Source: a virus
Virus record (IMG/VR): IMGVR_UViG_3300031463_000001
Location: 1 to 64,000 of that record
Length of the DNA: 64,000 bases
Direction: 5' to 3' (one strand)
Both the position numbers and the translations under genes were made by a program. Shown here in pieces: positions 2,634 through 56,055 of the stretch; positions within the stretch are counted from its first letter, which is position 1; the number at the start of each line of letters is the position of its first letter. The notes under the pieces are model-generated. The model had not been told where the DNA came from, did no database searches, and was given only the letters and a program-made list of their open reading frames with translations.

Positions 2634-2727
2634 TAAAATAAGGATATTGAAATCAAAAAAAGATTTCAATGATTGTTTATTAAAGAAGGGAAAGAAAAAT
2701 GATAAAAAAAATAGGAAGTTTGATTAA
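2605..2727 (+). CDS. Possible tiny protein (40 aa) overlapping both neighbours
   Basis: A 40-codon frame starts with ATG inside the end of the preceding gene, overlapping it by 29 bases, and runs 29 bases into the protease gene. The purine stretch GGGGAGTAAAG just before its ATG could act as a ribosome binding site, and it fills the only gap between two genes. The product is basic (many Lys, including a KKGKKNDKKNRK stretch). Such an overlap chain is common in phages, but the frame is short and its composition could arise by chance in AT-rich DNA. Confidence 0.3.
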   Translation: MSLQKIGGINKIRILKSKKDFNDCLLKKGKKNDKKNRKFD

Positions 2728-10604: not shown

Positions 10605-10605
10605 G

Positions 10606-10977: not shown

Positions 10978-11362
10978 AAATAATGATGAGTGTTGTATAG
11001 GTGAATTATATATTGATGATAAATTTTTTTGTAATACTTTAGAAGATACAGTTAGAAACGAAAAAATTTATGGTCAAACTGCTATTCCAGCAGGAAATTA
11101 TAAAATATTTTTGGATTTTTCACCTAGATTTAAAACTAATTTACCTCATATATTAAAAGAAAATGGCAATGAATTAGATACTTTTAACGGAGTTAGGATT
11201 CATAGCGGAAATACTTCAAAAGATACTGAAGGATGTATATTAGTGGGTGAATGGGATAAAAAAGATAATTTTATTTCAAATAGTCGAATTACTTTAACTA
11301 AACTATTAAGAACTTTTGAAGGTAATTATCCTATATCTTTGGAGGTTATAAATGGATTTTAA
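10952..11362 (+). CDS. DUF5675-type protein, related to L,D-transpeptidases
   Basis: A 136-residue beta-rich protein. The pattern TAIPAGNYKI, then VRIHSGNTSKDTEGCILVG, matches phage proteins of the DUF5675 type, in which the H-x-G-N and G-C elements resemble the His and Cys of L,D-transpeptidase (YkuD-like) active sites. A role on peptidoglycan, in lysis or entry, is likely but not proven for the family. I chose the ATG at 10952, with GGAG eight bases before it, over a TTG three bases upstream. The next gene is also a probable cell-wall enzyme and overlaps this one by 11 bases, so the pair looks like a functional unit. Confidence 0.7.
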   Translation: MKVTIKRIRNNDECCIGELYIDDKFFCNTLEDTVRNEKIYGQTAIPAGNYKIFLDFSPRFKTNLPHILKENGNELDTFNGVRIHSGNTSKDTEGCILVGEWDKKDNFISNSRITLTKLLRTFEGNYPISLEVINGF

Positions 11363-11906
11363 TGCTTACACTAAGGATGAATTTGATCTTTTTTTATCTG
11401 ATTTGAAAGTAGGAGATGTTTTATTATTTAAGGGTGAAGGTTGGATTTCAAAGGCAATAATGTGGTTTTCAGATAGTGAATGGAGTCATGCAGCTATATA
11501 TGCGGGAAATGGATGTATTTATGAATCAACTGAAACAGGAGTTGAATTAAATTCTTTGAAAACTAGAGTAAATCAATGTGAAAGAATATTGGTAAGAAGA
11601 TATGTAGAATTTTTAACAGATTCAGAAATAGAAAAATTAACTCAAAAAGCTACTGAGTTAGTTTATGAAAGTTATGATACATGGCAACTTTTTGGTTTAG
11701 GTTTATATTTTCTTTTGAGAAAATTAGGTATTAGATTTAGTTGGTTAGTACCAAATAATAGAAGTAAGATGATTTGTTCAGAATTAGTTTATGTATTGTA
11801 TTTAGCTATGGGTAAAAAACTTTATGATGATCCAAAAACTTTTACTCCAGAAACAATAAAAGGTTCTAAATTATTTTATAGTGTATGTATGTTTTTGGGA
11901 GATTAA
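11352..11906 (+). CDS. Permuted NlpC/P60-like (YiiX-type) cysteine hydrolase
   Basis: A 184-residue protein with the hallmark order of YiiX-like permuted papain-fold enzymes: a GDVLLFKG start, then His46 in WSHAAIYAG, Glu58 in CIYES, and later Cys142 in MICSELVYVLY. These enzymes cleave amide or ester bonds, often in peptidoglycan or its lipid anchors. The start ATG follows TTGGAGGT within the end of the preceding gene. It is adjacent to the DUF5675 protein and to a shorter apparent paralogue downstream, suggesting a small lysis or cell-wall cassette. A hydrophobic stretch around residues 112-124 might contact the membrane. Confidence 0.75.
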   Translation: MDFNAYTKDEFDLFLSDLKVGDVLLFKGEGWISKAIMWFSDSEWSHAAIYAGNGCIYESTETGVELNSLKTRVNQCERILVRRYVEFLTDSEIEKLTQKATELVYESYDTWQLFGLGLYFLLRKLGIRFSWLVPNNRSKMICSELVYVLYLAMGKKLYDDPKTFTPETIKGSKLFYSVCMFLGD

Positions 11907-20041: not shown

Positions 20042-20473
20042 ATGATAGAATTAAAAAGTTACATAAAACATATTCCAGGTCATAAAGATTCAAAAGGTGA
20101 TTTAGCTGAATGGGTTGTTGTATCTCATGATACAGGAAAAATTATTTCATCTCACAAAACAAAGGCTGATGCTGAAAAACATTTGAAACAAATACAAATG
20201 TTCAAGCATATGAAATCTGTTATACTTACTTTATTAACTAAAAAAGCAAACAAAGATGAAGATATTAGTATTCAAATTATTGATGTTGAAAAGGATATGT
20301 TTGAAAGATTGATAAATGAAGAATTTTTAGATGAAATGAAGTTAATGAAATTGATAAAAACTAAACCAGAATTATTTAAAGAAATAAGAAAGAAAGTGAC
20401 TCAATATTTGGAAAAGGAGATATCTGAAGAAGAACTTTACAACTATTTGAAGGAAACTGTAGGAAAAAGTTAA
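20042..20473 (+). CDS. Conserved phage-type small protein (143 aa)
   Basis: The first 55 residues have the pattern W-V-V-V-S-H-D-T-G-K-I-I-S-S-H-K-T-K-A-D-A-E-K-H-L-K-Q-I, here cited as separated residues. I associate this block with small phage proteins near capsid and protease genes, where it looks like a short beta hairpin plus helix. The rest is helical and charged. Start follows TAGGAGGT. It is the first gene after a terminator. Function unknown. Confidence 0.5.
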   Translation: MIELKSYIKHIPGHKDSKGDLAEWVVVSHDTGKIISSHKTKADAEKHLKQIQMFKHMKSVILTLLTKKANKDEDISIQIIDVEKDMFERLINEEFLDEMKLMKLIKTKPELFKEIRKKVTQYLEKEISEEELYNYLKETVGKS

Positions 20474-23728: not shown

Positions 23729-23751
23729 AATTGTCCAAATTGATTTATATT

Positions 23752-24276
23752 ATGAATATATCTGATTTATTAAAAGATCCAGAAAAAGCAAAAGAGATTT
23801 TAAATTTGGCTATTAGAACCCAAAATAAAGAATTAGTTGAGATATTAATTCCAATAGCCAAAGATCCTTATCTTACTTGTGTATATGCAATAGAAATGGT
23901 TAAGGGAAAAATTAAAGATGAATGGGAAGATATTATTGCACAAGATGCTAAAAACTCTTATTCATATGCAGAATTTGTTTTAGAAAAACCTTTTCCAAAA
24001 GGAGAGGATGCTATTGCTAAAGATCCGAAATATTCCTATTATTATGTTAGAGATGTTTTAAGGAGTCCTTTTCCAAAAGGAGAAGATGCTATTGCTAAAA
24101 ATCCAGAATATTCTTACAAGTATGCAAAATATTTTTTAAAAAATAGATTCATTAAAGGAGAAAAAGAGATTGTCAAAGATAATTATTTGTTTAAAGAATA
24201 TGTAGAATTTCTTAAAAATATTGGTAAACTAGACGAATTCTTAAAAGATCATCCAGAAGTAAAAGATAAAGTATGA
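23752..24276 (+). CDS. Tagged 26-residue-repeat protein, plus-strand copy 1 (three units)
   Basis: I start at the ATG at 23752 because it gives the MNISDLLKDP beginning shared by its relatives; an upstream TTG is in frame. After the tag comes an N-cap (ILIPIAKDPYLTCVYA...KIKDEW), then three 26-residue units starting at EDII or EDAI, the first two ending in PFPKG and the last in NRFIKG, and a C-cap ending KLDEFLKDHPEVK. Regular Tyr and Ala positions (S-Y-x-Y-A) suggest a two-helix solenoid. There is no Shine-Dalgarno before this first gene, unlike most of the window. The stop overlaps the next ATG by four bases. Function unknown. Confidence 0.8.
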   Translation: MNISDLLKDPEKAKEILNLAIRTQNKELVEILIPIAKDPYLTCVYAIEMVKGKIKDEWEDIIAQDAKNSYSYAEFVLEKPFPKGEDAIAKDPKYSYYYVRDVLRSPFPKGEDAIAKNPEYSYKYAKYFLKNRFIKGEKEIVKDNYLFKEYVEFLKNIGKLDEFLKDHPEVKDKV

Positions 24277-24869
24277 ATATAGAAGATTTGTTAAAAGATC
24301 CCGAAAAAGCAAAAGAGGCTTTAGATAATGCCATTAGAACCCAAAATAAAGAATTAGCTGAGATATTAATCCCAATAGTTAAAAATCTTTATTTAATTTA
24401 TAGATATGCTAGAGATATAGTTGGAGGAAAGATTAAAGATGAATGGGAAGACATAATTGCTACCAATCCTAGATATTCGTATCATTATGCTTATGAAGTC
24501 TTAAATGGTCCTTTTCCAAAAGGAGAAAATGCTATAGCCACCGATGCAGAATATTCTTATAGATATGCCCTAAATGTTTTACATGAACCATTTCCAAAAG
24601 GAGAAAATGCAATTGCAACTGATCCTTTTTATTCCTTTTTTTATGCTTGTGAAGTTATAAAGGGTCCATTCCTAAAGGGAGAAGATACTATATCTAAAGA
24701 TGATTATCATTCTTATGAGTATGCCAAATTTATTCTTAATGATAGATTTATTAAAGGAGAAGGAGCTATAATTAAGTATAAAAAATATATTGATTCTTAT
24801 ATAGGTTTTCTTAAAGAAATTGGTAAACTAGACGAATTCTTAAAAGATCACCCAGAGGTTAAATTATGA
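24273..24869 (+). CDS. Tagged 26-residue-repeat protein, plus-strand copy 2 (four units)
   Basis: Begins with the variant tag MNIEDLLKDP. Four units follow the N-cap: the first starts EDIIAT, two start ENAIAT, the last is the terminal type (NDRFIKG). The C-cap is GFLKEIGKLDEFLKDHPEVK. It is closest to copies 1 and 3, sharing the phrase AIRTQNKEL in the N-cap, so the array grew by tandem duplication, with later gain or loss of units. The end of this gene (CCAGAGGTTAAATTATGA) holds a purine box that can serve as ribosome binding site for copy 3. Confidence 0.8.
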   Translation: MNIEDLLKDPEKAKEALDNAIRTQNKELAEILIPIVKNLYLIYRYARDIVGGKIKDEWEDIIATNPRYSYHYAYEVLNGPFPKGENAIATDAEYSYRYALNVLHEPFPKGENAIATDPFYSFFYACEVIKGPFLKGEDTISKDDYHSYEYAKFILNDRFIKGEGAIIKYKKYIDSYIGFLKEIGKLDEFLKDHPEVKL

Positions 24870-25537
24870 ATATATCTGATTTATTAAAAGATCCAGAAAA
24901 AGCAAAAGAGGTTTTAGATTTGGCTATTAGAACCCAAAATAAAGAATTAGCTGAAATGTTAATTCCAATAGTTAAAGATCCTTATTTAATTTATAGATAT
25001 GCAGATCGAATAGCTAAAAGAAAAGTTAAAGACGAATGGGAAGATATTATTGCTCAAGATTCTTATGCTTCTTACGATTATGCTAACTATATTTTAAAAG
25101 GTCCTTTTCCAAAAGGAGAGGATGCTATTTCTCAAAAGCCTTTTACTTCTTACTATTATGTTAAAAATGTCTTACATGGTCCCTTTCCAAAAGGAGAAGA
25201 TGCTATTGCTCAAAATGCTTTTTATTCTTATTCTTATGCTGCAGAGGTTTTAAAGGGTCCATTTCCTAAAGGTGAGGATACCATTGCTAAAGATTCAGAA
25301 TATTCTTATCTTTATGCTGAAAATGTTTTACAAGGACCTTTTCCTAAAGGAGAAGATGTTATTAGTAAAGAGAATTATTATGCTTATCATTATGCTAAAG
25401 TAGTGTTACATAATAGATTTCCAAAAGGAGAAAAAGCAATAATAAATTCAATTTGGTTAGAACCTTATGTTGAGTTTCTTAAAAACATAAACAAATTAGA
25501 TGAATTCCTAAAAGATCATCCAGAAGTAAAAAGATAG
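24866..25537 (+). CDS. Tagged 26-residue-repeat protein, plus-strand copy 3 (five units, longest)
   Basis: Has the full MNISDLLKDP tag and five units, the most in the window: four with GPFPKG ends and a terminal HNRFPKG unit. Variation between units is concentrated at the two residues before S-Y or S-F and at the position after Y-A, which would be surface positions if the helices stack. The C-cap ends KLDEFLKDHPEVKR. The four-base start/stop overlap with copy 2 indicates coupled translation. The increasing unit number across copies 1 to 3 is noteworthy. Confidence 0.8.
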   Translation: MNISDLLKDPEKAKEVLDLAIRTQNKELAEMLIPIVKDPYLIYRYADRIAKRKVKDEWEDIIAQDSYASYDYANYILKGPFPKGEDAISQKPFTSYYYVKNVLHGPFPKGEDAIAQNAFYSYSYAAEVLKGPFPKGEDTIAKDSEYSYLYAENVLQGPFPKGEDVISKENYYAYHYAKVVLHNRFPKGEKAIINSIWLEPYVEFLKNINKLDEFLKDHPEVKR

Positions 25538-25540
25538 AAT

Positions 25541-25996
25541 ATGAATATAACTGATTTATTAAAAGATCCAGAAAAAGCCAAAGAAGTATTGGAAAAGGTA
25601 CTTGATGATAAAAATAAAGAATTAGCTGAAATATTAATCCCAGTAGTTAGAGATCCTTATTTAACTTATGCATATGCTTCCGAAATAGTTGAAGGGAAAA
25701 TTAAAGACGAGTGGGAAGATATTATTATGCAAAATGCAAAGTATTCTTATTTTTATGCATTTGATGTTATAAAGGAACCTTGGCCAAAAGGAGAAGATGC
25801 AATAGCCCAAGCCGATGATGTAGCTATTATATATGATTATGCAACAGAGATATTACATGATCGATTTAAAAAAGGTGAGGATTCAATTATTAGGATTGAT
25901 AAGGGATATGTTGAAGCGTATATGGAATTTTTAAAAAAGATTAGTAAACTAGATGAGTTTTTAAAAGATCATCCGGAGGTAAAGTCCAATTTGTAA
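25541..25996 (+). CDS. Tagged 26-residue-repeat protein, plus-strand copy 4 (two units)
   Basis: Tag MNITDLLKDP, an N-cap slightly different from copies 1-3 (LEKVLDDKNKELAEILIP), then one normal unit ending WPKG and one 28-residue unit with a two-residue insertion ending DRFKKG. The C-cap is KLDEFLKDHPEVKSNL. The bases CCGGAGGTAAAG coding PEVK form a perfect Shine-Dalgarno, but it lies about 30 bases from the next ATG. This is the last gene of the plus-strand array; the next gene is a tail protein. Confidence 0.8.
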   Translation: MNITDLLKDPEKAKEVLEKVLDDKNKELAEILIPVVRDPYLTYAYASEIVEGKIKDEWEDIIMQNAKYSYFYAFDVIKEPWPKGEDAIAQADDVAIIYDYATEILHDRFKKGEDSIIRIDKGYVEAYMEFLKKISKLDEFLKDHPEVKSNL

Positions 25997-44566: not shown

Positions 44567-45088
44567 TTATTGGGGTGTTATTTCTGGATGATCTTTATAG
44601 AACTCATCTAGTTTACCAATTTGTTTAAGAAAATTGGTATAAGAGGTAAGTTGTTTTTTATTTTTAATTATAGTTCCTTCTCCCTTAATAAATCTATCTT
44701 TTAAAACGTTTTGAGCATAAAGGCATGAGTAATAGCTATCAGTAGCTATAGTATTTTCACCTTTAGGAAAAGGACCATGCAAAACATCACTAGCATAACC
44801 ATATGCATATCTTAACCATTTAGCCATTTCATCTTCCCCCTTTGGAAAAGGCCCTTTTAAAATAAATTTAGCATACCAAAAAGAAGTTTGGCCATCTAAA
44901 GTAATTATATCTTCAAACGTATCTTTAATCTTACCTTTAGCAATTTTTTCGGCATATTCATAAGTTAAAAAAGGATCTTTAACCATTGGGATTAATGTTT
45001 CTGCTAGTTCTTTATCTTTCTTTTTAATAGCTTCTTTTAATACTTTTTTAATTTTATCGGGATCTTTTAATAAATCTGATATGTTCAT
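44567..45088 (-). CDS. Tagged 26-residue-repeat protein, minus-strand copy 1 (three units)
   Basis: Has the tag MNISDLLKDP, an N-cap with an unusual KIKDTFED, and three units: the first two end GPFPKG, the last ends KDRFIKG. The second unit is diverged (EDEMAKWLRYAYGYAS). The C-cap ends KLDEFYKDHPEITPQ, the only copy in the operon in which PEVK has become PEIT, and the only one with no downstream gene to translate. It closes the minus-strand operon at the convergence point. Confidence 0.8.
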   Translation of the reverse strand: MNISDLLKDPDKIKKVLKEAIKKKDKELAETLIPMVKDPFLTYEYAEKIAKGKIKDTFEDIITLDGQTSFWYAKFILKGPFPKGEDEMAKWLRYAYGYASDVLHGPFPKGENTIATDSYYSCLYAQNVLKDRFIKGEGTIIKNKKQLTSYTNFLKQIGKLDEFYKDHPEITPQ

Positions 45089-45528
45089 AATTTATCTTTA
45101 ACCTCTGGATGGTCTTTTAGAAATTCGTTTAACTTATTAATTTTTTTAAGAAAATCTATATAATCCCAAAAATAATCAAAATTAATAATAGTATCCTCTC
45201 CCTTAATAAACCTATCTTTTAACACATCTTTAGCATACCAAAAAGAATACCAAGAATTTTTAGCTATAACATCTTCTCCTTTAATAAATCTATCTTTTAA
45301 AACATAACTAGAATAAAAAAAAGAAAATTTTGAATCTTGAGCAATAATATCTTCAAACTCATCTTTAATCTTACCTTTAGCAACTTTTTCCGCATATTCA
45401 CAAGTTAACTCGGGATCGTTAACTATTGGGATTAACATTTCTGCTGCTTCTTTATTTTTATCTTCAATAGCTTTTTCTAATACTTTTTTAGCTTTATTTG
45501 GATCTTTTAATAAATCTGATATGTTCAT
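45085..45528 (-). CDS. Tagged 26-residue-repeat protein, minus-strand copy 2 (two units)
   Basis: Short form, 147 residues, tag MNISDLLKDP and two units that both end KDRFIKG, so the second was probably created by duplicating the terminal unit. The first unit starts EDIIAQ, the second EDVIAK. C-cap KLNEFLKDHPEVKDKL, with a Leu-Asn variant. Four-base overlaps with both neighbours. Confidence 0.8.
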   Translation of the reverse strand: MNISDLLKDPNKAKKVLEKAIEDKNKEAAEMLIPIVNDPELTCEYAEKVAKGKIKDEFEDIIAQDSKFSFFYSSYVLKDRFIKGEDVIAKNSWYSFWYAKDVLKDRFIKGEDTIINFDYFWDYIDFLKKINKLNEFLKDHPEVKDKL

Positions 45529-46133
45529 ACTTTATCTTTTACCTCTGGATGATTGTTTAAGAATTCTTTTAATTTTTTTATTCGTCTAAGAAAATTTATA
45601 TAACTCTTTAAATAAGTTGAATCGGAATTATTTATAATTGTATTTTCACCTTTAATGAATCTATCTCTTAAAACTTCTTTTGCATATCTAACTGAATAAT
45701 TAGAATTGGTAGCAATAGCATCTTCTCCTTTTGGGAATGGACTATGTAATATATATGCGGCATATTCAAATGAATGGTTTGGCTGTTTAGCTATTGCATC
45801 CTCTCCTTTTGGCCACGGTCCTTTTATAACATTAAATGCATATGAGTAAGCACTCCAAGGATCTTTAGAAATAGTATCTTCTCCTTTAGGAAACGGACCC
45901 TTTAAAACCTCATAAGCATACCAATAAGACCATATTCCATCTTGAGCAATTATATCTTCCCACTCATCTTTAATCTTACCTTTAACTATTCTTACAGCAT
46001 AAAGTTCTGTTAAACGGGGTTCTTTAACTATTGGGATTAACATTTCTGCTAATTCTTTGTTTTTGTTATCAATAGCTTCTTTTAATACCTTTTTAATTTT
46101 ATCGGGATCTTTTAATAAATCAGATATGTTCAT
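45525..46133 (-). CDS. Tagged 26-residue-repeat protein, minus-strand copy 3 (four units)
   Basis: Four units: three ending in PFPKG or PWPKG and a terminal RDRFIKG, with Trp in two of the aromatic positions (GIWSYWYA, DPWSAYSYA). The C-cap is diverged (KLKEFLNNHPEVK). The preceding gene in the operon is the unrelated protein at 46130, whose last bases overlap this ATG, and that gene separates copies 3 and 4. Confidence 0.8.
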   Translation of the reverse strand: MNISDLLKDPDKIKKVLKEAIDNKNKELAEMLIPIVKEPRLTELYAVRIVKGKIKDEWEDIIAQDGIWSYWYAYEVLKGPFPKGEDTISKDPWSAYSYAFNVIKGPWPKGEDAIAKQPNHSFEYAAYILHSPFPKGEDAIATNSNYSVRYAKEVLRDRFIKGENTIINNSDSTYLKSYINFLRRIKKLKEFLNNHPEVKDKV

Positions 46134-46648
46134 AATTTAATTTTGTATATACTATGACCTTTCTCTATAAATTCTGCAGAAAAGTTTTGATGTAATACAT
46201 GAGATCTCCAACGTGTTTCTTTCTTTTCAATTATCCACCATCTACCCCCATCCTTCCTTACAATAAAATCTCCATTCTGTAAAGAGGGTTCAAAGAGAGT
46301 CCACCCACTTAATATAGCTTCATTTTTTATACCTTGTTCAGTAGGTTTAAATCTTTGATTAAATGGTGTAATCATACTAATTTTAATTTCAATGGGACGA
46401 TAAAATCCACCAACATAATTAGTTCCAAAACAATAAAGACAAAATTCAATTTGAGGATGTTGTCCTCTTATCTTATCAAAATTAGGACAAATTTGGCCCT
46501 CTCTCTTTTTTCTATAATATAAAACACGTTCACCTCCCATCTCCAATAACCATTTCTCTCTATTTCGAATTTCCAGGAGGTATCTGACTAAAGGATCAAA
46601 GTTACGATCTGAAACATTGGGAAGAATTTGTAGGTGAGACCAACTCAT
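46130..46648 (-). CDS. Probable virion-type protein inside the repeat operon (172 aa)
   Basis: Has no tag and no repeats. It starts MSWSHLQILPNVSDRNFDPL, has a zinc-knuckle-like C54, C70 and C73 pattern (C-L-Y-C-F-G-T), and ends with W-R-S-H-V-L-H-Q-N-F-S and G-H-S-I-Y-K-I. I recall similar whole-length patterns in uncharacterised proteins of large contractile phages, where they lie near neck or baseplate genes. Its Shine-Dalgarno (GGAGGT, coded by the PEVK end of the upstream repeat gene) has ideal spacing. A virion component stored within the repeat operon would link the repeats to the particle, but this is inference. Confidence 0.5.
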   Translation of the reverse strand: MSWSHLQILPNVSDRNFDPLVRYLLEIRNREKWLLEMGGERVLYYRKKREGQICPNFDKIRGQHPQIEFCLYCFGTNYVGGFYRPIEIKISMITPFNQRFKPTEQGIKNEAILSGWTLFEPSLQNGDFIVRKDGGRWWIIEKKETRWRSHVLHQNFSAEFIEKGHSIYKIKL

Positions 46649-47169
46649 AGTTTAACCTCCGGATGATCTTTTAAGAATTCATCTAGTTTATTTATAGATT
46701 TAAGGAAATTAATATAATCTTCCAAATATCTTTTTTTAGGAGAATTAATAATAACATCCTCTCCTTTAATAAATCTATCTTTTAAAACATCTTGAGCATA
46801 TCGATTAGAACTCCAAAAATCAGTAGCAATAGCAGGTTCTCCTTTTGGCCAAGGACCTTTTATAATATCTCTAGCATATAAATAAGCATAATTATCATCT
46901 TTAGCAAGTGTATCTTCACCTCTAGGGAATGGACCTTTTAAAACAAATAAAGCATAATCATATGAAACTTTTACACTTTGAGCAATTATGTCTTCAAATT
47001 CATCTTTAACTTTACCCCGAGTTATATAATATGCATATTCATAAGTTAACGCGGGATCTTTAATTATTGGTATTAACATTTCTGCTAATTCTCTTTTTTC
47101 ACTAGTTATAGCCTTCCATAAAACTTTTTTAATTTTATCGGGATCTTTTAATAAATCTCCTATATTCAT
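46645..47169 (-). CDS. Tagged 26-residue-repeat protein, minus-strand copy 4 (three units)
   Basis: Tag variant MNIGDLLKDP. Units: first with ends GPFPRG, second GPWPKG, last KDRFIKG. The start of the N-cap differs (KVLWKAITSEKRELAE). The third unit starts EPAIAT rather than EDAI. The C-cap ends KLDEFLKDHPEVKL, whose codons provide the ribosome binding site of the unrelated gene downstream. Confidence 0.8.
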   Translation of the reverse strand: MNIGDLLKDPDKIKKVLWKAITSEKRELAEMLIPIIKDPALTYEYAYYITRGKVKDEFEDIIAQSVKVSYDYALFVLKGPFPRGEDTLAKDDNYAYLYARDIIKGPWPKGEPAIATDFWSSNRYAQDVLKDRFIKGEDVIINSPKKRYLEDYINFLKSINKLDEFLKDHPEVKL

Positions 47170-47612
47170 AATTTATCTTTTACCTCCGGATGATCTTTTA
47201 AAAACTCATCTAGTTTGTATATAGATTCAAGGAAACTAATATAATCCTTTAAATATTCTTTATCTTTAATAATAATATTTTCTCCTAAAAGAAATCTATC
47301 TTTTAAAATATTTTTAGCATAATCAAAAGAATACAATGAATCTTTAGCAATAGTGGGTTCTCCTTTTAGGAATGGTCCATGTAAAACATTTTCAGCATAC
47401 CAACAAGAAACAGGTGCGCTTTGTGCAATAATATCTTCCCACTCGTCTTTAATTGGTTTTCTAACTATTCGTTGAGCATATTTATAGGTTAAATAAGGAT
47501 CTTTAACTATTGGAATTAACATTTCGGCTAATTCTTTGTTTAAATCATCAATAGCATCTCTTAATACTTCTTTAGCTTTATCTGGGTTTTTTAATAAATC
47601 TGATATATTCAT
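47166..47612 (-). CDS. Tagged 26-residue-repeat protein, minus-strand copy 5 (two units)
   Basis: Tag with Asn in place of Asp (MNISDLLKNP), two units: EDIIAQSAPVSCWYAENVLHGPFLKG-type and a terminal one ending KDRFLLG. The N-cap ends KPIKDEW. The second unit opens with EPTIAK, similar to the EPAIAT opening of the last unit of copy 4, so those two are probably neighbours by duplication. C-cap ends KLDEFLKDHPEVKDKL. Confidence 0.8.
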   Translation of the reverse strand: MNISDLLKNPDKAKEVLRDAIDDLNKELAEMLIPIVKDPYLTYKYAQRIVRKPIKDEWEDIIAQSAPVSCWYAENVLHGPFLKGEPTIAKDSLYSFDYAKNILKDRFLLGENIIIKDKEYLKDYISFLESIYKLDEFLKDHPEVKDKL

Positions 47613-48223
47613 AATTTAACTTCTGGATGATCTTTTAAGAATTCATCTAGTTTATTTATTGTTTTTAAGAAATCGATATATTTTATCAAATAATTTTTTT
47701 CACCTTCTTGATCTCCACTATCTATAATTACATTTTCTCCTTTAACAAATCTACCCTTTGATACATCTCTAGCATAATGATAAGAATAATAAGGATCTTT
47801 AGCAATAACATCCTCTCCTTTAATAAAAGGTTTTTGTAAAACATTTGCAGCATAAAGATAAGAGAAAGTGGGATCTTTAGCTATAACATCCTCACCTTTA
47901 GGAAATGGACCTTTTAAGACCTCATAAGCATAATAATAAGAACTATAGGCGTTAGTAGCAATAGCATCTTCTCCTTTTGGGAATGGGGCATGTAAAACAA
48001 AGCTAGCATATCGATAAGAATAAAGGGGATCTTTAGTAATAATATCTTCCCATTCATCTTTAATTTTATTTTCAGCTATTTCAAGGGCATATCTAAAAGT
48101 TAACCCAGGATCTTTAACTATTGGAATTAACATTTTAGCTAATTTTCTTTCCCCAGTATTTATAGCTTTTCTTAATGCTTTTTCAGCTTTACTTGGATCT
48201 TTTAATAAATCTAAAAGATTCAT
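47609..48223 (-). CDS. Tagged 26-residue-repeat protein, minus-strand copy 6 (four units)
   Basis: Tag variant MNLLDLLKDPSK. Four units: ends APFPKG, GPFPKG, KPFIKG and the terminal KGRFVKG. First gene of the repeat operon on this strand, directly downstream of the primase-like gene, with which it overlaps by four bases; the end of the primase gene (GAGGAAGTTAA) provides its ribosome binding site. The C-cap has an insertion (GDQEGEKNYLIKYIDFLKTI) before the usual KLDEFLKDHPEVKL. Confidence 0.8.
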   Translation of the reverse strand: MNLLDLLKDPSKAEKALRKAINTGERKLAKMLIPIVKDPGLTFRYALEIAENKIKDEWEDIITKDPLYSYRYASFVLHAPFPKGEDAIATNAYSSYYYAYEVLKGPFPKGEDVIAKDPTFSYLYAANVLQKPFIKGEDVIAKDPYYSYHYARDVSKGRFVKGENVIIDSGDQEGEKNYLIKYIDFLKTINKLDEFLKDHPEVKL

Positions 48224-51048
48224 TTAACTTCCTCAAAACTTATAGGTCTTTCTATTTTACCTGACTTACTATTTAAACTAAAAGGACATCTTATACTTCC
48301 ACCTTGATGATATGTGCTAACATCTAATCTTAAATAATCTTCACTAGGAACAATTCCTGTAGTGGTTTTATCATATTTAGATACAATTTCATTATCCAAC
48401 AAATCTCTTAACTTTTTTCTAGTGGTAGTTATATTTTGAGGATTTTTAAAAAATATAAATAGATGATAACCTCTTCCACCAGTTTCAAATAGTTCAGTTT
48501 TAGATACTTCAAAGTTTTTCTTTATTAAATTATCTACATCTTTTATTATTTTTTTTAAATCTTTTCTATCATATTCAGAATGTACATCAAAATCTATCCA
48601 AGCTAGATTAGAGACTTTATCAGATAAAACTAAATGAAATTCCACTATTCTACCCGTATTTAATCTATCAAAATCCTCTTCAGTTTCAATTTTAAGAGGT
48701 TGATGTGTTTTGGAATCATTTTTCATAATTATAACATTTTCATTTGGTTTTAACCACAACATTGTATTAAAACCTTTTAAATATTTAAGAAGTTTAGATT
48801 TATTTGTGTTGTAGTAATTCCATATATCTTGTTCAGTCCATTTAGGTTTTTCAATAATTATAGTATCAGGATGAACGGGTTGGTAGGATTTTTTGAATAA
48901 AGAAATTTTTAGATGTGTGTTAACAACTAGATTGGGATTATTTTCATCTCCCCACTGATGTATAAAATCATTAACATACTCATATCTTCCTTCTTTAGAA
49001 TAATAATTTAAAATTTGATTTTTTGAATCATTATCATCTATTTTCCAATCTGTGATAGTTTCTCCCGCTTCCATATAATCACCCTCTTTTATTAATCTTT
49101 TTACTATTAATTTTTTTAAATCATCATCTAAATATTGTGGATATTTATTTTCGATTAATCTTATTAAATTACTAACATATATAGAAGGATTAGAAACAAA
49201 AGAAATAATTTCTTCTTTAGAAAAAGTAGGAGCTAATTCAGGCCATTTTTCAATATATCTTACCCAATCTTCGATATCATTTATTTCTTTAAATTTATTT
49301 AACACAAATTGTTTTAATTCCAAATTTTTTACTTTAAAAGTATTAATTAAATCAGCTAATTTTTCCCAATTTTCTTCTTTTATAAATCTTTCAATTTCTT
49401 CTTTAACTAATGTTTCTTCTGAAATATTATCTAATTTTGATTTATACTTAATATAAAGAGTATATGATTTTTTTCTAAGTTGTTCTAAACCCTTTTCTTT
49501 TAGTTCAGGGGTTAAAAAATCGAATCCCCAATTTTTTTCGATTTCTTCAATCCACCAATCTAAACTGTTTCTATTTATTAACATCTCAACTATTTTTCTT
49601 TTTAAGTCATCAGAAATTGATGGAAATCTTTTAATTATCTCTCCAAGATACCCTTGTTGTAACAATTTTTCTACAGTTGGTTTTTCAATCTTTATATTAA
49701 GAGTTTCTAAAATTTGGGGATGATCTTCAAAAAGATCTATATTTTCTTCTACATATTTTTTTAAATTATTTTTAGACTCTTCAGTTAATTTATCTTTATA
49801 TTTTAAAATTTCTTTTATAAAAGCAGATTGTAAATCGGAATTTCTTTCCATTTTATCTAATGATTTAATTGCTGAATTAAGATATTCATAATATTGATCT
49901 TTTGTACTTTGTTTAGCTACTGTTTTCCAATATTCAAATGCTGAAATTGGATTAGATTTAATTTCATCTATAATTTGTTCTTTTAATTTAGGATCTAAAT
50001 TAGTTTTTTCAAAGGTACTTTTATTTATTATATACCCAATTAAATTTAAAAAACTTCCTTTATTTAAAGGTGTTCCGCCTCCTCTAATTACTACAAAATC
50101 ATTAGGAAGACTTAAAACATAATCTATTAAAACTTGTTCGTTTAATTTATCTTTTATTAAATCCAGATAATTAAAAAATAAATCCCATTCTATAGGTGTT
50201 AATACTTTATCTTTTATTTCAATATGATTATATATTTTGTTTAATTTTTCAATTAAATCTTCTTTACTCATTTCTTTTTGTTCTTTAATAGGATACTTAA
50301 AAATAGGTTGCCATTCTTTTAATACCCCATAATCTTTGTCTAAGATAAAGATCGTACTATCAGATAATGATTTATTTAATGTACTATTTACTCCATCTTC
50401 TCCTCCAATAGCAAAAAGAGGAACTCCATTTTTAAAAATAAACCAAAATCCAATTTCTTTAGTTTTTGGATTTTCCCAATATTGCTGAGCATAATTTAAA
50501 TTATTAATACACCACATATTGTATCCCTTATTAGCTAATTCGATTATTCCTTCAGAAGATAATGCTTTATAGAGAACATATTGATCTCCTTCTATGTTTT
50601 TAGTATCTACTACTTCATAATTTATTTTTTCTTTTTCGGATGAGAAATTTAAAATTTCATCAATATCTTTTCTCTTTAAAAGTGAAGGATATTTGGTAAA
50701 CTTTTCTTTTAATTCATCTAATTTATCACTAATCTTATCATAATTAGTAAACAATAATTTAAACATATTTACTATATCAAAATCTTTAAGAGGAGAAATA
50801 GGTTGAGTTTCTATTTCTTTTACATTAATATCCAACCATTCTTCTCCTTTACGCTTATGGATATATTTTTCTTTTATAGTATCTAAATCTTTCTCTACCC
50901 TCAAATATGGAGAAAGAACATACACAATATCTAAAAATTTTTGGGTATAAGAGGGATTACCTAAAAACTCTTTTACATTAAATAATTCTTTTAACTTTCC
51001 AGCAATTTTAAAAATAGGTAACCAATCTTTTATGTCAAATTTATGCAT
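48220..51048 (-). CDS. Archaeo-eukaryotic-type primase-polymerase with long N-terminal region (942 aa)
   Basis: The last 130 residues carry the hallmarks of archaeo-eukaryotic primase catalytic cores: WIDFDVH (817-823) with the D-x-D metal motif, FETGGRGYHLF (854-864) with the G-G-R-G-x-H signature, and a final R-C-P-F-S-L-N-S-K-S-G (920-930), as in LigD-type polymerases. The preceding 680 residues are helical, with a part (residues about 170-240) built of GYNMWCINNLNYAQQYW and WFIFKNGVPLFAIGG that I cannot place. A helical repeat zone fills residues 400-750. Near the N-terminus FNVKEFLGNP resembles the LLKDP tag. Probably makes primers for phage replication. Confidence 0.65.
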   Translation of the reverse strand: MHKFDIKDWLPIFKIAGKLKELFNVKEFLGNPSYTQKFLDIVYVLSPYLRVEKDLDTIKEKYIHKRKGEEWLDINVKEIETQPISPLKDFDIVNMFKLLFTNYDKISDKLDELKEKFTKYPSLLKRKDIDEILNFSSEKEKINYEVVDTKNIEGDQYVLYKALSSEGIIELANKGYNMWCINNLNYAQQYWENPKTKEIGFWFIFKNGVPLFAIGGEDGVNSTLNKSLSDSTIFILDKDYGVLKEWQPIFKYPIKEQKEMSKEDLIEKLNKIYNHIEIKDKVLTPIEWDLFFNYLDLIKDKLNEQVLIDYVLSLPNDFVVIRGGGTPLNKGSFLNLIGYIINKSTFEKTNLDPKLKEQIIDEIKSNPISAFEYWKTVAKQSTKDQYYEYLNSAIKSLDKMERNSDLQSAFIKEILKYKDKLTEESKNNLKKYVEENIDLFEDHPQILETLNIKIEKPTVEKLLQQGYLGEIIKRFPSISDDLKRKIVEMLINRNSLDWWIEEIEKNWGFDFLTPELKEKGLEQLRKKSYTLYIKYKSKLDNISEETLVKEEIERFIKEENWEKLADLINTFKVKNLELKQFVLNKFKEINDIEDWVRYIEKWPELAPTFSKEEIISFVSNPSIYVSNLIRLIENKYPQYLDDDLKKLIVKRLIKEGDYMEAGETITDWKIDDNDSKNQILNYYSKEGRYEYVNDFIHQWGDENNPNLVVNTHLKISLFKKSYQPVHPDTIIIEKPKWTEQDIWNYYNTNKSKLLKYLKGFNTMLWLKPNENVIIMKNDSKTHQPLKIETEEDFDRLNTGRIVEFHLVLSDKVSNLAWIDFDVHSEYDRKDLKKIIKDVDNLIKKNFEVSKTELFETGGRGYHLFIFFKNPQNITTTRKKLRDLLDNEIVSKYDKTTTGIVPSEDYLRLDVSTYHQGGSIRCPFSLNSKSGKIERPISFEEVK

Positions 51049-51057
51049 GAATTTTTC

Positions 51058-51528
51058 TTATTTTAAAATTTGATCAACTTTTGAAGCTTCCTCTTCTCCT
51101 TTCTTTTTCTTAGTATAATCAACAATTTCTTTCTTTTCTTCTTCATTTAAATTCCATCTCTTTATCAAATCTTTAAACACTGATACAAAATTCACATCAA
51201 TCATTTTCTTTATAATGGAGATTATATAAAATCTATCTTTAATATCACTTATATGTGGGTTATCTTCAAGTTGTCTAATTTTTTCTAAATCCATATTTTT
51301 AAGTGCCTTTATGAACATCATATATTTTGAATCATCTGTTAGAGTTTTTTCCCACGCTTCAGTTAAGGTTTCCTCTAATTCTTTTTCAGTTTTTTGGGTT
51401 CTTTCAAGTACTTCTTCTCCATATGCTTCAACATCTTCCCATTTATAACTCTTTAATATTAAAGGATTTTTTAATATTTCTCCAATATTTATCTTACCTT
51501 CTTTTATCAACTTTATAAGTTTTTTCAT
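51058..51528 (-). CDS. Helical protein with an internal tag-like motif (156 aa)
   Basis: The start has a strong Shine-Dalgarno (AAGGAGG). The first 25 residues read as LIKLIKEGKINIGEILKNPLI; the I-x-I-x-x-I-L-K-N-P element corresponds to the N-terminal tag of the neighbours, here shifted by 12 residues. The rest is helical and charged with a Glu/Lys-rich C-terminus. No domain recognised. Lies between the primase and the three 190-residue paralogues. Confidence 0.6.
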   Translation of the reverse strand: MKKLIKLIKEGKINIGEILKNPLILKSYKWEDVEAYGEEVLERTQKTEKELEETLTEAWEKTLTDDSKYMMFIKALKNMDLEKIRQLEDNPHISDIKDRFYIISIIKKMIDVNFVSVFKDLIKRWNLNEEEKKEIVDYTKKKKGEEEASKVDQILK

Positions 51529-51538
51529 TTATTCCTCC

Positions 51539-52117
51539 TTAAATTAATTTTTTCAAATTTTCTTTAAGCATATCTACATATTCGTTATACAAAGAATCAA
51601 GATCCGATTCTAATTCCTTTTTCATTATTTCTTGCTTTACTTCGTTTTTATTAAACATTTTTAAAGCATATTTTAGGTCTTCCAATATACTCCTTAATTC
51701 ATTAATTTTTTTCTCAATAGGAACTTTTTCCTCTAGCAAGCTATCCCAATATTCATTTAAATTTATCAAATCTTTTACTACTTCTTCATTACTTAAGTTA
51801 AACTTTAATTCAAACTTTGTATAATCAATAAAATCATCTGATTTAACTATTTCAAAATTTTTCCTTATTAATTTATCAACTTTGTCCCAATAATCTGGCA
51901 TAATCTCAATATCCCACCTATCGAAAAACCTTTCTAATTTTTTTTCTCCTATCTTTTCAATTGTTTCATTATCAATATCTATAGTTGGTTTATAAACATC
52001 AATTTCAAAAATTTCATCATCTTTACTACTCCAACTTTCATCAACTTCTTTAATTTTGTCTTTTACTTTAACTATATCAGCTAATTCAGGATATTTTAAT
52101 AAATCAGATATATTCAT
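51539..52117 (-). CDS. Tagged helical protein, family of about 190 residues, member 1
   Basis: Starts MNISDLLKYPELADIVKVKDKIKE, the tag with Tyr in place of Asp. Then an acidic segment with repeated I-D-x-Y-x-P and IDIDNETIEK, a helical middle, and a long C-terminal coiled coil (LRSILEDLKYALKMFNK, YNEYVDMLKENLKKLI). Related in layout to the proteins at 52117 and 54278: tag, I-D-V or L-D-I strand with P-x-I, then two helical segments and a closing M-L-K-E-x-L-K. No similarity to known families seen. Confidence 0.65.
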   Translation of the reverse strand: MNISDLLKYPELADIVKVKDKIKEVDESWSSKDDEIFEIDVYKPTIDIDNETIEKIGEKKLERFFDRWDIEIMPDYWDKVDKLIRKNFEIVKSDDFIDYTKFELKFNLSNEEVVKDLINLNEYWDSLLEEKVPIEKKINELRSILEDLKYALKMFNKNEVKQEIMKKELESDLDSLYNEYVDMLKENLKKLI

Positions 52118-52689
52118 TAGGTTAACTCCTTAATTATTTTATCCCACATTTTTCTATATTTTACATATAGAGGAGGTAATTGGGGTCTAAGTAATTCTTG
52201 ACTATTCTCCCTTATTTGTTTATTTATTTCAAAATTATTTAAATCATGTTTAGCATTAACATTCCATCCCGAATATGTATCTTTTAAATCTTCTATTGGT
52301 CGATCACTCTTTAAAAGAAATTCAATTTCTTTTATTTCATTTTTAAAATTTTTCATAATTTCTTTATTACTTATACTAATAGGCTTAGCTTTAAGGATAA
52401 GTTTATCCTCACTTGGTCTAAATTCATAAATATCAAGATCATATGCTTCGACTACTTCGCTTACTTCATCCAAGTATTTTTTACGAGTCTCATTATATAA
52501 TTTGTGTAATTGTTCCCATTTTTCTTCATTATCAAATAATTCATGTTCAAGTTTTTGAGGAATTACTAAATCATCTATTGTAAAAACAGATATTTCTGAT
52601 TCGGGATTATTTAGGATATCTTTAATTTTATTGTAGGTAACTAACACATCACCTAAAAAAGGATATTTTAATAAATCAGATATTTTCAT
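52117..52689 (-). CDS. Tagged helical protein, family of about 190 residues, member 2
   Basis: Tag variant MKISDLLKYPFLGDVLVTYNKIKDIL. Shares with its relatives a conserved acidic I-D-D-L-V-I-P strand, an EVSEVVEAYDLDIYEFRPSEDKLILKAKP stretch and a C-terminal helix with K-Y-R-K-M-W-D-K-I-I-K-E-L. It begins inside the ligase gene end (four-base overlap) and the last bases overlap the next gene by one, so they are made together. Confidence 0.65.
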   Translation of the reverse strand: MKISDLLKYPFLGDVLVTYNKIKDILNNPESEISVFTIDDLVIPQKLEHELFDNEEKWEQLHKLYNETRKKYLDEVSEVVEAYDLDIYEFRPSEDKLILKAKPISISNKEIMKNFKNEIKEIEFLLKSDRPIEDLKDTYSGWNVNAKHDLNNFEINKQIRENSQELLRPQLPPLYVKYRKMWDKIIKELT

Positions 52690-54281
52690 GGTTCTAACAC
52701 ATCCAGAAATTTATTTATCAAATCTATTTGAGAAGGAGTAAAAATCCATCTTTTTCCATTTTGTTTTTCAAACCACGATCTTGCAGTATTACCTAATACA
52801 TCTGCAGTAGCTTTCCAATCAGCCACCATTTCCAAAATATATTCATTTGGCATTCTAGAGGCATCTACTTTTTGGGTTGCATTATCTGGATCTTCACCTA
52901 CTATTTCTACTTTATCACACCAATATTCTGGATGATGTTTACTATTTTTAATGTGATGGAATAAAACTTGTTTTTCATTTTCTTTTAAAGGTTCTTTAAT
53001 CTTGTTGAACTTTTTGTAGGTTAAATCAATATAAGGAGTTCTTTCAGGTTCTTTCATTTTCAATTCATCATGTTTTTCTACATTTTTTAATGCGTCTGAA
53101 TATTGAGGAAACGCTTTAACTAATTTTTTAACATTATTTTTTACTCTATTAACATGGTTAGCTATATGGGCTTGATATTCTTTTTCTTTATCATTCCAAA
53201 AAGGATCTTTTAATAAAGCTTTAATTTCTATTTTATTATTTTTAACTAAATTCAAAAGGTTAGCTTCTTTTGATATTTCATTCCAATTAGGTATTTGTTC
53301 TAATCTTAAATCAGTAGGATCAATTCTTTTATCTGGTCTAATCCTAACAAAAGTAGGTATCCTTAAAGCTATTCCTGTATCTTCTCCTAAATATTCTAAT
53401 GTTTTTTCATCATAAACAGGTACATCTTTTACAAAATAACTTATTGCTTCAACCTCTATTACATATTTAGGTTTAACAAATATTCTATCTTTTTCTTGAT
53501 ATAATTTATCTTGTTGAGATATTTTTAACCATTCTTCTTTTTCTTTTTGATCTAACCCACCCACATTTCCTGCATATCTAAACTTATTTTCTTTATCCAT
53601 AAACGCTAAACCCAAAGAACCTACCATTTCTGGATGCTCCTTACTTTTCTCTATAAATATTACACCTAAATCAAATGTTAAAGTTGGTTTACATTTATAA
53701 ATATTCTTATCTGTATAAATAACAGCTCCTTCGTATTTTTTAGTTATAACTAAATTCCAATCATTAGTGTAATCTTTCATTTCAATAATGGGATGAACTA
53801 ATTTTCCACTTTCAAAAATTTTTCTAACTTTTATTATTCCATCTTCAACTTTTTCATCATCTAAATGTAATACATCTAAAACATAAAATCTAATTTTGGT
53901 TTCATCATTTGGAGAAGGTTTATTAACAAGGTGGAGTGTTTTATTAAAAGGAAGCATATATCCTTGATTGTCAGAAGCATATAATTCACCTACAATTAAA
54001 GCAAATGTTATGGGGTGGGATTCTAAAATTTGACGGATCTCTTTAAGTACAGGTAAATCTTTTCTAATTATTCCATTTTGGGTAATGAAATAGGGATCGT
54101 CTCCATATTTATAAACCAAAAGATTTAAAATTCCGTCTATCTTAAAAGTTATATATTTAACATTTTCTTTTTTTATTATCTTATCAATATCCTCGAAATT
54201 AATGGTTTTCATACTTTTCTCTTCTTTCCATTTTTGTAATATTGGTAAAAATTTATTTTGTTTGTCTATTTTTTTAATCAT
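52686..54281 (-). CDS. ATP-dependent DNA ligase fused to an HD/DUF5662-like domain
   Basis: Residues 25-320 form the nucleotidyltransferase and OB region of ATP-dependent DNA ligases: KIDG motif I (47-50), GELYA (98-102), Y-E-G-A-V-I (183-188) and K-C-K-P (196-199). Ligases of this type seal nicks in replication and repair. Residues 364-530 are a separate HD-like domain with H372, H376, E402-K-H-D-E (HD at 404-405), H442-H, and S-K-H-H-P-E-Y-W (447-454), the pattern of DUF5662. At the junction stands KIEIKALLKDPFW (350-362), the LLKDP tag seen at the N-termini of neighbours. Ribosome binding site AAAGGAAA. Confidence 0.7.
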   Translation of the reverse strand: MIKKIDKQNKFLPILQKWKEEKSMKTINFEDIDKIIKKENVKYITFKIDGILNLLVYKYGDDPYFITQNGIIRKDLPVLKEIRQILESHPITFALIVGELYASDNQGYMLPFNKTLHLVNKPSPNDETKIRFYVLDVLHLDDEKVEDGIIKVRKIFESGKLVHPIIEMKDYTNDWNLVITKKYEGAVIYTDKNIYKCKPTLTFDLGVIFIEKSKEHPEMVGSLGLAFMDKENKFRYAGNVGGLDQKEKEEWLKISQQDKLYQEKDRIFVKPKYVIEVEAISYFVKDVPVYDEKTLEYLGEDTGIALRIPTFVRIRPDKRIDPTDLRLEQIPNWNEISKEANLLNLVKNNKIEIKALLKDPFWNDKEKEYQAHIANHVNRVKNNVKKLVKAFPQYSDALKNVEKHDELKMKEPERTPYIDLTYKKFNKIKEPLKENEKQVLFHHIKNSKHHPEYWCDKVEIVGEDPDNATQKVDASRMPNEYILEMVADWKATADVLGNTARSWFEKQNGKRWIFTPSQIDLINKFLDVLEP

Positions 54282-54844
54282 TTTCCTTTATTTTTGATTA
54301 TGTCCTTTAATGTTTCTTTTAACATTTCTTCATAATCAGATTTAATTTTTTTAATTTCTTTTTCTATTTCTTTAATAGCATCCTCATTTTCTTTTTCAGT
54401 TTCTTCCAAAATTTTCAAGGATTCCTCTAAACTTTTCCCATATTCAACTATAGCTGAAATATTTTCTTCTATATTTTTTTCTTTAAACAAAATGTTTAAC
54501 TCAAACAAATCATCATGCATACTTTCTAAAATACTTCGTAAACTTTGTTTTGGAATTAACTTAAAAGAGGAAACACTCCACTGATCTTTTAAATCAAAAT
54601 TTTTCTCTATGATTTTAGTAGCATTCTTATAAAAATTAGTCATTAAATATTCATATTGATCATAAAGAGGTTTCAAATCTTCGTCTGAAAGAAAATCAGG
54701 AATTTTTATTTTAGGTTCTTCTATATCAAGTTCATAATTATCTATTTCTTCTAATTCATAAAGTTGAGTAACTTTTTTTGCATTATTATAAACTTTAATG
54801 ACATCCACTAATTGAGGATATTTTAATAAATCTGAAATGTCCAT
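54278..54844 (-). CDS. Tagged helical protein, family of about 190 residues, member 3
   Basis: Begins MDISDLLKYPQLVDVIKVYNNAKK. The middle has E-L-D-I-E-E-P-K-I-K-I-P, and the second half is an Ile/Glu/Lys-rich coiled coil (LKILEETEKENEDAIKEIEKEI). It precedes the ligase gene in the operon and overlaps it by four bases. There is no Shine-Dalgarno; instead a 12-base hairpin stands immediately upstream of the ATG. See the finding on this hairpin. Confidence 0.65.
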   Translation of the reverse strand: MDISDLLKYPQLVDVIKVYNNAKKVTQLYELEEIDNYELDIEEPKIKIPDFLSDEDLKPLYDQYEYLMTNFYKNATKIIEKNFDLKDQWSVSSFKLIPKQSLRSILESMHDDLFELNILFKEKNIEENISAIVEYGKSLEESLKILEETEKENEDAIKEIEKEIKKIKSDYEEMLKETLKDIIKNKGK

Positions 54845-54854
54845 CTTTGTAAGG

Positions 54855-54890
54855 GATCTAGGGAGAATATTTTTTGTGTCTCCCTAGATC
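54855..54890 (-). promoter_or_regulatory. Strong hairpin just upstream of the tagged gene at 54844
   Basis: A perfect 12-base stem (GATCTAGGGAGA with its complement TCTCCCTAGATC) and 12-base loop. On the minus strand it is not followed by a T-run, so it is not a plain terminator. It lies ten bases before the ATG and could block or position ribosomes, act as an RNA processing site or bind a protein. It falls between the stop of the ChaB-like gene and the start of the 54844 gene. Confidence 0.55.
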
Positions 54891-54900
54891 TATTTTTGGG

Positions 54901-55236
54901 TTAATCTTTTCTTACCCATTTACCATCTTCGGTTTTCTTGTATTGTTCTTTTACAGCACTCCATGCAGCTCGAGCAGCATATTCATCACTTTTTCCATAT
55001 TCTTTACTAGAGTTAAAAACTCCCATCCAAATATCTTGGGCATGCACAGGAAGTTCATCAATCATCTTTCTAATTTTTTCTCTACTTGATTTAGGTCTTT
55101 CTCTAAGTTCCTCTGCAACCTCTTCTTTAGTACTTTCAGTAGCAGCCTTAATAACTCTAGCAAGTTGAGTTTCATCTAACGAAGCCAACCATTCGTTTAA
55201 TTTGGTTGGATTATTTAGCAACGATTTGATATCCAT
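54901..55236 (-). CDS. ChaB-like protein with an N-terminal tag
   Basis: From residue 60 the protein reads LPVHAQDIWMGVFNSS and AARAAWSAVKEQYKK with a final GKWVRKD, the defining pattern of ChaB proteins (L-P-x-H-A-Q-D-I and A-x-R-x-A-W-x-A-V-K). ChaB is a small protein associated with cation transport control in E. coli and is also found in phages, with unclear role. Here an additional 55-residue N-terminus begins MDIKSLLNNPTKL, the tag in a weaker form, and a helical ATESTKEEVAEELRE segment. Good ribosome binding site AATGGAGGT. Confidence 0.75.
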   Translation of the reverse strand: MDIKSLLNNPTKLNEWLASLDETQLARVIKAATESTKEEVAEELRERPKSSREKIRKMIDELPVHAQDIWMGVFNSSKEYGKSDEYAARAAWSAVKEQYKKTEDGKWVRKD

Positions 55237-55246
55237 TTTACCTCCA

Positions 55247-55651
55247 TTAATCTTTTATCTTTTTCAATAAAGCTTCAATCACTTTTTTAATTTCGTAAGC
55301 GGGATAACTCTTTAAAAACCATTCCAACTTTTCTCTTTTAGCTAAAAATTCAATATATTCAGTTATAATATCTTCATCTCCACTTTCTAATATAGCTTTT
55401 TCTCCTTTAATAAATCTATTTCTTAGTGTCCATTGAGCATATTCTAATGACATTTTAGCATCGGTGGCAATAATATCTTCTACTTCAGGAACAGGGTATT
55501 TACTTCTATAATAAACGTATTCAGAAATTATATCCTTATTTCGGGTATATTTTAGTAGTTCAGAGGCGGTATATTCATCATCTTCATCAAGAGCCCTCTT
55601 AATTCTACCTTCTAATCCACCTGGTTCTTTTAATAAATCAGAAACATCCAT
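55247..55651 (-). CDS. Tagged 26-residue-repeat protein, single unit (minus strand)
   Basis: The ATG at 55651 gives MDVSDLLKEPGG as the start, in line with the family; an in-frame ATG 17 codons earlier would add a stretch with no match. The N-cap is diverged (ASELLKYTRNKDIISEY), followed by one unit EDIIATDAKMSLEYAQWTLRNRFIKG and an EKAI-type cap ending in KLEWFLKSYPAYE. The unit carries the terminal-type ending N-R-F-I-K-G, consistent with a single, terminal unit. A distant, minimal member outside the main operon. Confidence 0.7.
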   Translation of the reverse strand: MDVSDLLKEPGGLEGRIKRALDEDDEYTASELLKYTRNKDIISEYVYYRSKYPVPEVEDIIATDAKMSLEYAQWTLRNRFIKGEKAILESGDEDIITEYIEFLAKREKLEWFLKSYPAYEIKKVIEALLKKIKD

Positions 55652-55689
55652 ATAAGTATCCCTATAAATAAATCGATTTTGATAATCAA

Positions 55690-56055
55690 TTATTTTATCC
55701 AATTTAATTGAACCAAATCAATTTTCTTTAAAAAATACTTTTTTGTATCCTCTCCATAAACAATCACTATTATATACATTTTCTTTTTAGATAATCTTAT
55801 AAAGATTCGTTTCACATTTCCATTTTTCATTATTCTAATAGGGTAAGATACAAATTCAAAAAAGAAATTAAACAATATTTTTATTGCATCATTATGATCA
55901 ACTTCTCGTCTTAAATTATGTTTATTCAATATTGAAAACAAAATATTTAATCTTTTTAAAGCAAACAAATGATGTTTATAGAAGAAATATTTTACAATCC
56001 TACTAATCAATTCGTGACTATTTGGTCGAATTATCCGAAAGTTTTTCGGATTCAT
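55690..56055 (-). CDS. Hypothetical basic protein (121 aa)
   Basis: Rich in Lys, Arg, Phe and Ile, with a hydrophobic helix (AIKILFNFFFEFVSYPIRIM) and a possible strand series (RIFIRLSKKKMYIIVIVYG). Good ribosome binding site (AAGGAGA). Ends 38 bases before the single-unit repeat gene. No domain recognised; the hydrophobic core might be membrane-peripheral. Confidence 0.55.
   Translation of the reverse strand: MNPKNFRIIRPNSHELISRIVKYFFYKHHLFALKRLNILFSILNKHNLRREVDHNDAIKILFNFFFEFVSYPIRIMKNGNVKRIFIRLSKKKMYIIVIVYGEDTKKYFLKKIDLVQLNWIK

Follow-up and report, generated by a model that had tools for sequence, protein, structure and literature searches.

The virus record IMGVR_UViG_3300031463_000001 from IMG/VR has 124,898 bases, of which bases 1-64,000 are the window analysed here. 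The record encodes the head, sheath and baseplate genes of a myophage. Its terminase gene is split over the record ends (60-608 in the window, 123754-124898 in the record) with a 50-aa overlap at 96% identity, and because the ends overlap the record is probably near complete. Our analysis concerns one gene and its parts:

52686-54281, minus strand: ligase-DUF5662 fusion ORF, a single unbroken frame of 531 aa
53280-54281, minus strand: ATP-dependent DNA ligase part, residues 1-334 (motifs, Pfam DNA_ligase_A_C, PDB profile match)
53187-53279, minus strand: interdomain linker, residues 335-365 (AlphaFold block with pLDDT of about 48-66)
53202-53234, minus strand: putative internal tag peptide KIEIKALLKDP, residues 350-360 (PSSM and pattern match)
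52704-53186, minus strand: DUF5662 domain, residues 366-526 (Pfam, alignment of 18 homologues, AlphaFold model)

An earlier reading of the sequence alone had proposed a DNA ligase joined to an HD-like domain with a tag at the junction, and the arrangement itself is borne out: within the one ORF the OB domain ends at residue 318, DUF5662 begins at residue 366 and a tag-like peptide lies exactly between them. The segment found there is KIEIKALLKDPFW, the first letter of which is residue 350.

The ligase and DUF5662 domains

The OB domain (Pfam DNA_ligase_A_C) is matched at residues 218-318 with 30.6 bits against a cut-off of 27.5. The ligase motifs are FKIDG (46-50), GELY (98-101), YEGAVIY (183-189), KCKP (196-199) and, on the OB side, LRIPTFVRIRPDK (306-318), so that the KxDG motif, the further nucleotidyltransferase motifs and the OB domain of an ATP-dependent DNA ligase are all present. 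In an alignment with the fused protein of a related phage, G001, the motif residues are largely invariant, and FKIDG, GELY, YEGxVxY, KxKP and LRxPxFxxIRxDK are common to both proteins. Searched against the PDB, a profile made from the two matches DNA ligases from archaea and humans (best match 2cfm, E=4e-11); the ligase middle-domain profile, PF01068, exceeds its cut-off in G001 only and not in the 531-aa protein. The domains and intact motifs show the 531-aa protein to be, as judged from its sequence, a minimal-type ATP-dependent DNA ligase (nucleotidyltransferase and OB domain) joined to DUF5662.

DUF5662 (PF18907) is matched at residues 366-526 with 76.2 bits against a curated cut-off of 27. 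In an alignment of 18 homologues the invariant columns are H..HD..K..H..HHPE.W..D, and the H...HD...H...H...D order of the HD metal ligands is found in these homologues as an order of residues only. The description of the domain as 'HD-like' is thus apt for the motif order H/HD/H/HH/D but does not extend to kinship, as no significant similarity to HD proteins was obtained by Pfam, hhalign or Foldseek: there is no Pfam HD match, hhalign gives a probability of 2% with the alignment falling at HD itself, and the best PDB fold match, the HD domain of PgpH, has a non-significant E of 1.1. A profile match to the DNA primase 2lzn (E = 0.0014) was rejected because the invariant His/Asp pattern is unmatched. 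A few viral proteins, among them a fish herpesvirus ORF57, also match the fold of the DUF5662 model weakly (probability 0.87-0.98, E 0.2-0.5, not significant). Stand-alone phage DUF5662 genes (L008, L010, L012 and partly L011) adjoin conserved genes that, by eye, are IMP dehydrogenase/GMP reductase-like and nucleotidyltransferase-like, a hint of nucleotide metabolism. We found no paper on DUF5662 in the literature searched. DUF5662 is likely to be a metal-dependent hydrolase, perhaps one that cleans nucleotides or DNA ends; since the HD-like residue order comes with no significant link to HD proteins, we offer a nucleotidase or end-cleaning role as a proposal only.

The tagged gene run and the junction peptide

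The ligase gene is part of a gene run at 44567-55702 in which 12 of the 14 other proteins have a tag near the N-terminus, the exceptions being ORF 46130 and the archaeo-eukaryotic primase (AEP) protein at 48220. The genes adjoining the ligase gene overlap start to stop. The neighbours are as follows:

55247-55702, minus strand: tagged repeat protein, MDVSDLLKEP; the tag Met is residue 18 of the longest ORF (tag scan)
54901-55236, minus strand: ChaB-domain protein with N-terminal tag MDIKSLLNNP (Pfam ChaB 4e-16; tag 14.2 bits)
54278-54844, minus strand: tagged protein, MDISDLLKYPQLVDV (tag matrix)
52117-52689, minus strand: tagged protein, MKISDLLKYPFLGDV (tag matrix)
51539-52117, minus strand: tagged protein, MNISDLLKYPELADI (tag matrix)
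51058-51528, minus strand: protein with KINIGEILKNP at residue 12 and a paralogue at record position 85120 (tag pattern)
48220-51048, minus strand: 942-aa protein with a C-terminal AEP domain (Pfam, motifs)
44567-48223, minus strand: seven genes, six of them for tagged helical-repeat proteins; the exception is 46130-46648 (tag scan)

The AEP domain of the 942-aa protein is 49% identical to that of G001, and its motifs WIDFD, TGGRGYH and RLDVST..GGSIRCPFSLN are intact. A tag pattern scan found no significant tag at the N-terminus of this protein; the segment NVKEFLGNP near its N-terminus was rejected as a tag, as 7% of the G001 proteins do equally well.

The tag, (M)xIxDLLKDP, is found at or soon after the N-terminus in about 30 proteins of the record. 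Its bearers are helical-repeat proteins, three 'LLKYP' proteins that form a family, the ChaB-domain protein and others, that is, several unrelated kinds, so the tag goes beyond one paralogous family. The tag codons differ between copies at most positions. Selection is therefore apparently on the peptide, and a DNA-level signal was set aside. Dozens of tagged helical-repeat proteins are encoded at 44567-48223 and 23731-25996 in the window and at 66747-71921 and 84058-93795 in the record. These proteins end in KLDEFLKDHPEVK, which itself looks like the tag, and the last codons of the repeat genes, GAGGTTAAATT, are at the position expected for the ribosome-binding site of the next overlapping gene.

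The junction peptide differs from these copies in position, being at residue 350 of 531, and was scored with a matrix that was derived from N-terminal copies and excludes the junction peptide. Its 9-mer EIKALLKDP reaches 13.2 bits, against 20-28 bits for typical tags, and so ranks with the weakest of the N-terminal ones (14.2 bits in the ChaB protein, 13.8 in ORF 51058); the next-best internal segment anywhere in the phage has 10.9 bits. At the score of this 9-mer 0.32 matches are expected in the shuffled phage proteome, shuffling within its own linker gives P = 0.0019, and none of the 38,753 9-mers of the tagless relative G001 attains it. From four other tags away from residue 1 (in ORFs 51058, 84058 and 85120 and in a sister phage, G014) we also derived an 11-position pattern, K-I-[NE]-I-x-x-[LI]-L-K-[DN]-P. 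KIEIKALLKDP fits nine of the 11 positions and the best 11-mer of the G001 proteome eight; the two positions missed are the middle ones, which are restricted too, with KA in place of SD, ED or GE before LLKDP. Because of the matrix score, the shuffling, the 9-mers of the relative and the pattern match, we regard the resemblance as real beyond chance at the level of sequence, though the residues before LLKDP are off-consensus. The earlier suggestion that enzymes of DNA metabolism can carry the tag finds support. In AlphaFold models the tag of a repeat protein is a short helix that leads into a second helix capped by DP (model pLDDT 97), and the junction peptide is likewise modelled as a short helix, DP and a long helix, with low confidence and in a flexible linker. 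Such a shared local form would fit a docking peptide, and it would also fit a helix cap that resembles the tag by coincidence.

Fusion and tag in related phages

When the whole ligase-fusion protein was used as query, no relatives were found in viral contigs or in the phage collection; DUF5662 alone found them. Alignment-based scans yielded further ligase-DUF5662 fusions only in G001 and its duplicate contig, and in the genomes scanned DUF5662 is present only as stand-alone proteins. The G001 protein (L006:3783-6605) has 940 aa, with the domain order of the window protein, ligase then DUF5662, and a DUF5662 71% identical to that of the window. The chain goes on with an EncFtn-like (ferritin-like) domain and then a LigD-family Prim-Pol, four families being above their Pfam cut-offs, while the AEP primase of the window is a separate gene of the ligase's gene run. 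With its order of ligase, HKxSKG module, DUF5662, EncFtn-like ferritin and LigD Prim-Pol, the G001 chain is an unusual LigD-like phage protein.

The tag matrix scan found no N-terminal tags in the G001 proteome, and there is no significant tag at the G001 ligase-DUF5662 junction. The segment MELDDYLKERLF, at the same place as the junction tag, was rejected as a decayed tag, as 0.5 such matches are expected in the linker. The linkers of the window and G001 proteins align no better than expected by chance (P = 0.58 and 0.14). The G001 linker holds another short module, YIKNHKNSKGEPAPWVI...SSHKTKEEAEKHLKQI (HKxSKG..HKTKxEAEKHLKQI), which is N-terminal in the window ORF 20042 and in L061 and L062, and internal in L064 and L065. 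In its longer form, HKxSKGxxAxWVxxxHxTGxIxSSHKTKxEAEKHLKQI, it is a module of about 55 aa, without a convincing Pfam match, in otherwise unrelated phage proteins (window 20042-20473; L061, L062, L064, L065). A 43-aa stretch, GKPLTDEERLxxHKxxFPxD..GTGKG, is 70% identical between the prohead protease (window 2699-5002) and a different G001 protein (10146-11534), and by sequence is another mobile short module. Four contigs that match the tag DNA pattern (L030, L032, L033 and L034) have no tag array, and their match looks like chance.

The sister record G014 is close, and its sequence covers regions other than that of the ligase. One of its proteins, of 331 aa, has KIEISDLLKNP at residue 120, and the regions after this internal tag correspond to two ORFs of the window phage, 90348 (tagged, MNIADLLKNP) and 90562. 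On sequence comparison this protein shows that a fused protein can have the tag in its interior.

These data bear on the order of events. The sequence-only reading held that fusion of a tagged HD protein to the ligase left the tag inside, a view that untagged, unfused homologues of the domain would speak against. Each of 17 unfused DUF5662 homologues, found in Clostridia and in phages but in no tag-bearing phage, starts at the domain and has no tag. Since G001 is fused yet tagless, with a different module at the junction, and the 17 unfused proteins are tagless too, the ligase-DUF5662 fusion is most likely older than the tag in the 531-aa protein, and short modules are probably gained and lost at the linker. 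The fused relative is known from two records, perhaps of one phage, so the order of events hangs on one outgroup, and as the linkers are not alignable it stays a matter of inference. G001 could have lost the tag, which counts against a fusion-first order.

Role of the tag and comparison with known systems

We slightly favour, at a little better than even, an explanation in which the fusion predates the tag, the ligase belongs with the AEP protein to a LigC/LigD-like set for gap filling and nick sealing, and the tag is a docking peptide. The ligase would work with the AEP primase-polymerase of its gene run in filling short gaps and sealing nicks, in the manner of LigC/Prim-PolC or LigD, and DUF5662 would be a metal-dependent hydrolase cleaning nucleotides or DNA ends. 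The tag, a lineage-specific short peptide (short helix and DP helix cap), would have been placed in an exchange-tolerant linker of the older fusion and would probably dock the enzyme to the assembly of its tagged neighbours. Catalysis, cooperation with the primase, the order of events and docking are what we infer here. Docking is favoured because the tag is common to unrelated proteins, survives internally and is absent in a related phage; as that phage does without the tag, it should not be needed for catalysis. One point against this explanation is that the 942-aa AEP protein itself is without a significant tag.

Unlikely, in our judgement, is that behind the ligase gene lay one for a DUF5662 protein tagged at its N-terminus, and that the two fused and trapped the tag. 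The start-to-stop overlap of neighbouring, nearly all tagged genes would suit such an event, as would the G014 protein with its internal tag, whose counterparts in the window phage are separate ORFs, and the K-I-(N/E)-I that the internal tags have in common; against these stand the same fusion in G001 with its tagless proteome and other junction module, the lack of a tag in all 17 unfused homologues, and the lack of any remnant of a start codon or ribosome-binding site in front of the junction tag. Ranked after it, and doubtful, is convergence, in which a short linker helix and the Asp-Pro that caps the first helix of DUF5662 came to resemble the tag in an AT-rich genome with a Leu/Lys-rich proteome. 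The predicted local form, identical to that in the repeat protein, agrees with this, as do the lowest score of the tag set, the fraction of a match expected by shuffling and the non-significant G001 segment at the same place, but the P of about 0.002 within the linker, the match to a pattern that was derived independently from internal tags, at a level reached by no G001 segment, and the position exactly between domains within a run of tagged genes argue otherwise. It is quite improbable that a private address peptide, N-terminal or in linkers, assembles the ligase-DUF5662 protein, the AEP primase and the ChaB protein on a helical-repeat scaffold, with DUF5662 replacing the end-cleaning domain of LigD in a phage version of LigD.

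The data are of wider value for the LigC/LigD-like setting of DUF5662 and for the movement of short modules from protein to protein. In G001 a single polypeptide joins DUF5662 to a DNA ligase and a LigD-type primase, a link that points to a testable role, and short peptide modules move between linkers and N-termini in phage proteins that are unrelated, so that the purpose of the tag can be approached by experiment.

A split DnaG-type primase, a DnaB and a UDG-PolA fusion are encoded by the phage itself, and for this reason the AEP need not be a replicative primase and is more likely a repair enzyme. In the fusion (L004:2685-5024) a uracil-DNA glycosylase superfamily domain is joined N-terminally to a family A DNA polymerase. 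A RecA-like protein is split by an intein (L003:16351-18306). QueC is fused to a glutamine amidotransferase domain (L002:1762-3189, minus strand; Pfam), and genes resembling, by eye, QueE, QueD and a QueF/FolE-like enzyme are at record positions 95389-96078, 110182-111054 and 111754-112173; these Que-like genes make 7-deazaguanine DNA modification possible.

In phage T4 the capsid targeting sequence of the internal head proteins is a short phage targeting peptide. The tag resembles it as a short N-terminal peptide common to unrelated proteins of one phage, and differs in being internal as well, with no indication of head localisation or cleavage. The stand-alone DUF5662 proteins (PF18907) of phages and Clostridia have the same domain and invariant His/Asp/Glu pattern, whereas the window protein has the ligase and the tag in addition. 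Short gaps in mycobacterial DNA are the substrate of LigC and Prim-PolC, which fill and seal them (PMC5663958). As with bacterial LigC/Prim-PolC, a minimal ATP-dependent ligase and an AEP primase-polymerase are encoded close together in a phage without Ku: Ku (PF02735) is absent from the phage records G000, G001 and G014, with a positive B. subtilis control, although the host may have a Ku. Unlike LigC, the phage ligase bears DUF5662 with the tag in the linker, and unlike Prim-PolC, the AEP is the C-terminus of a 942-aa helical protein, with several tagged genes between the two. The LigD_N phosphoesterase (PF13298) is absent from the same three records, one control genome being positive. G001 is like bacterial LigD, the multidomain ligase of NHEJ, in having ligase and LigD-family Prim-Pol in one chain, and unlike it in having DUF5662 and a ferritin-like domain between them; in the window, unlike LigD, ligase and Prim-Pol are two genes.
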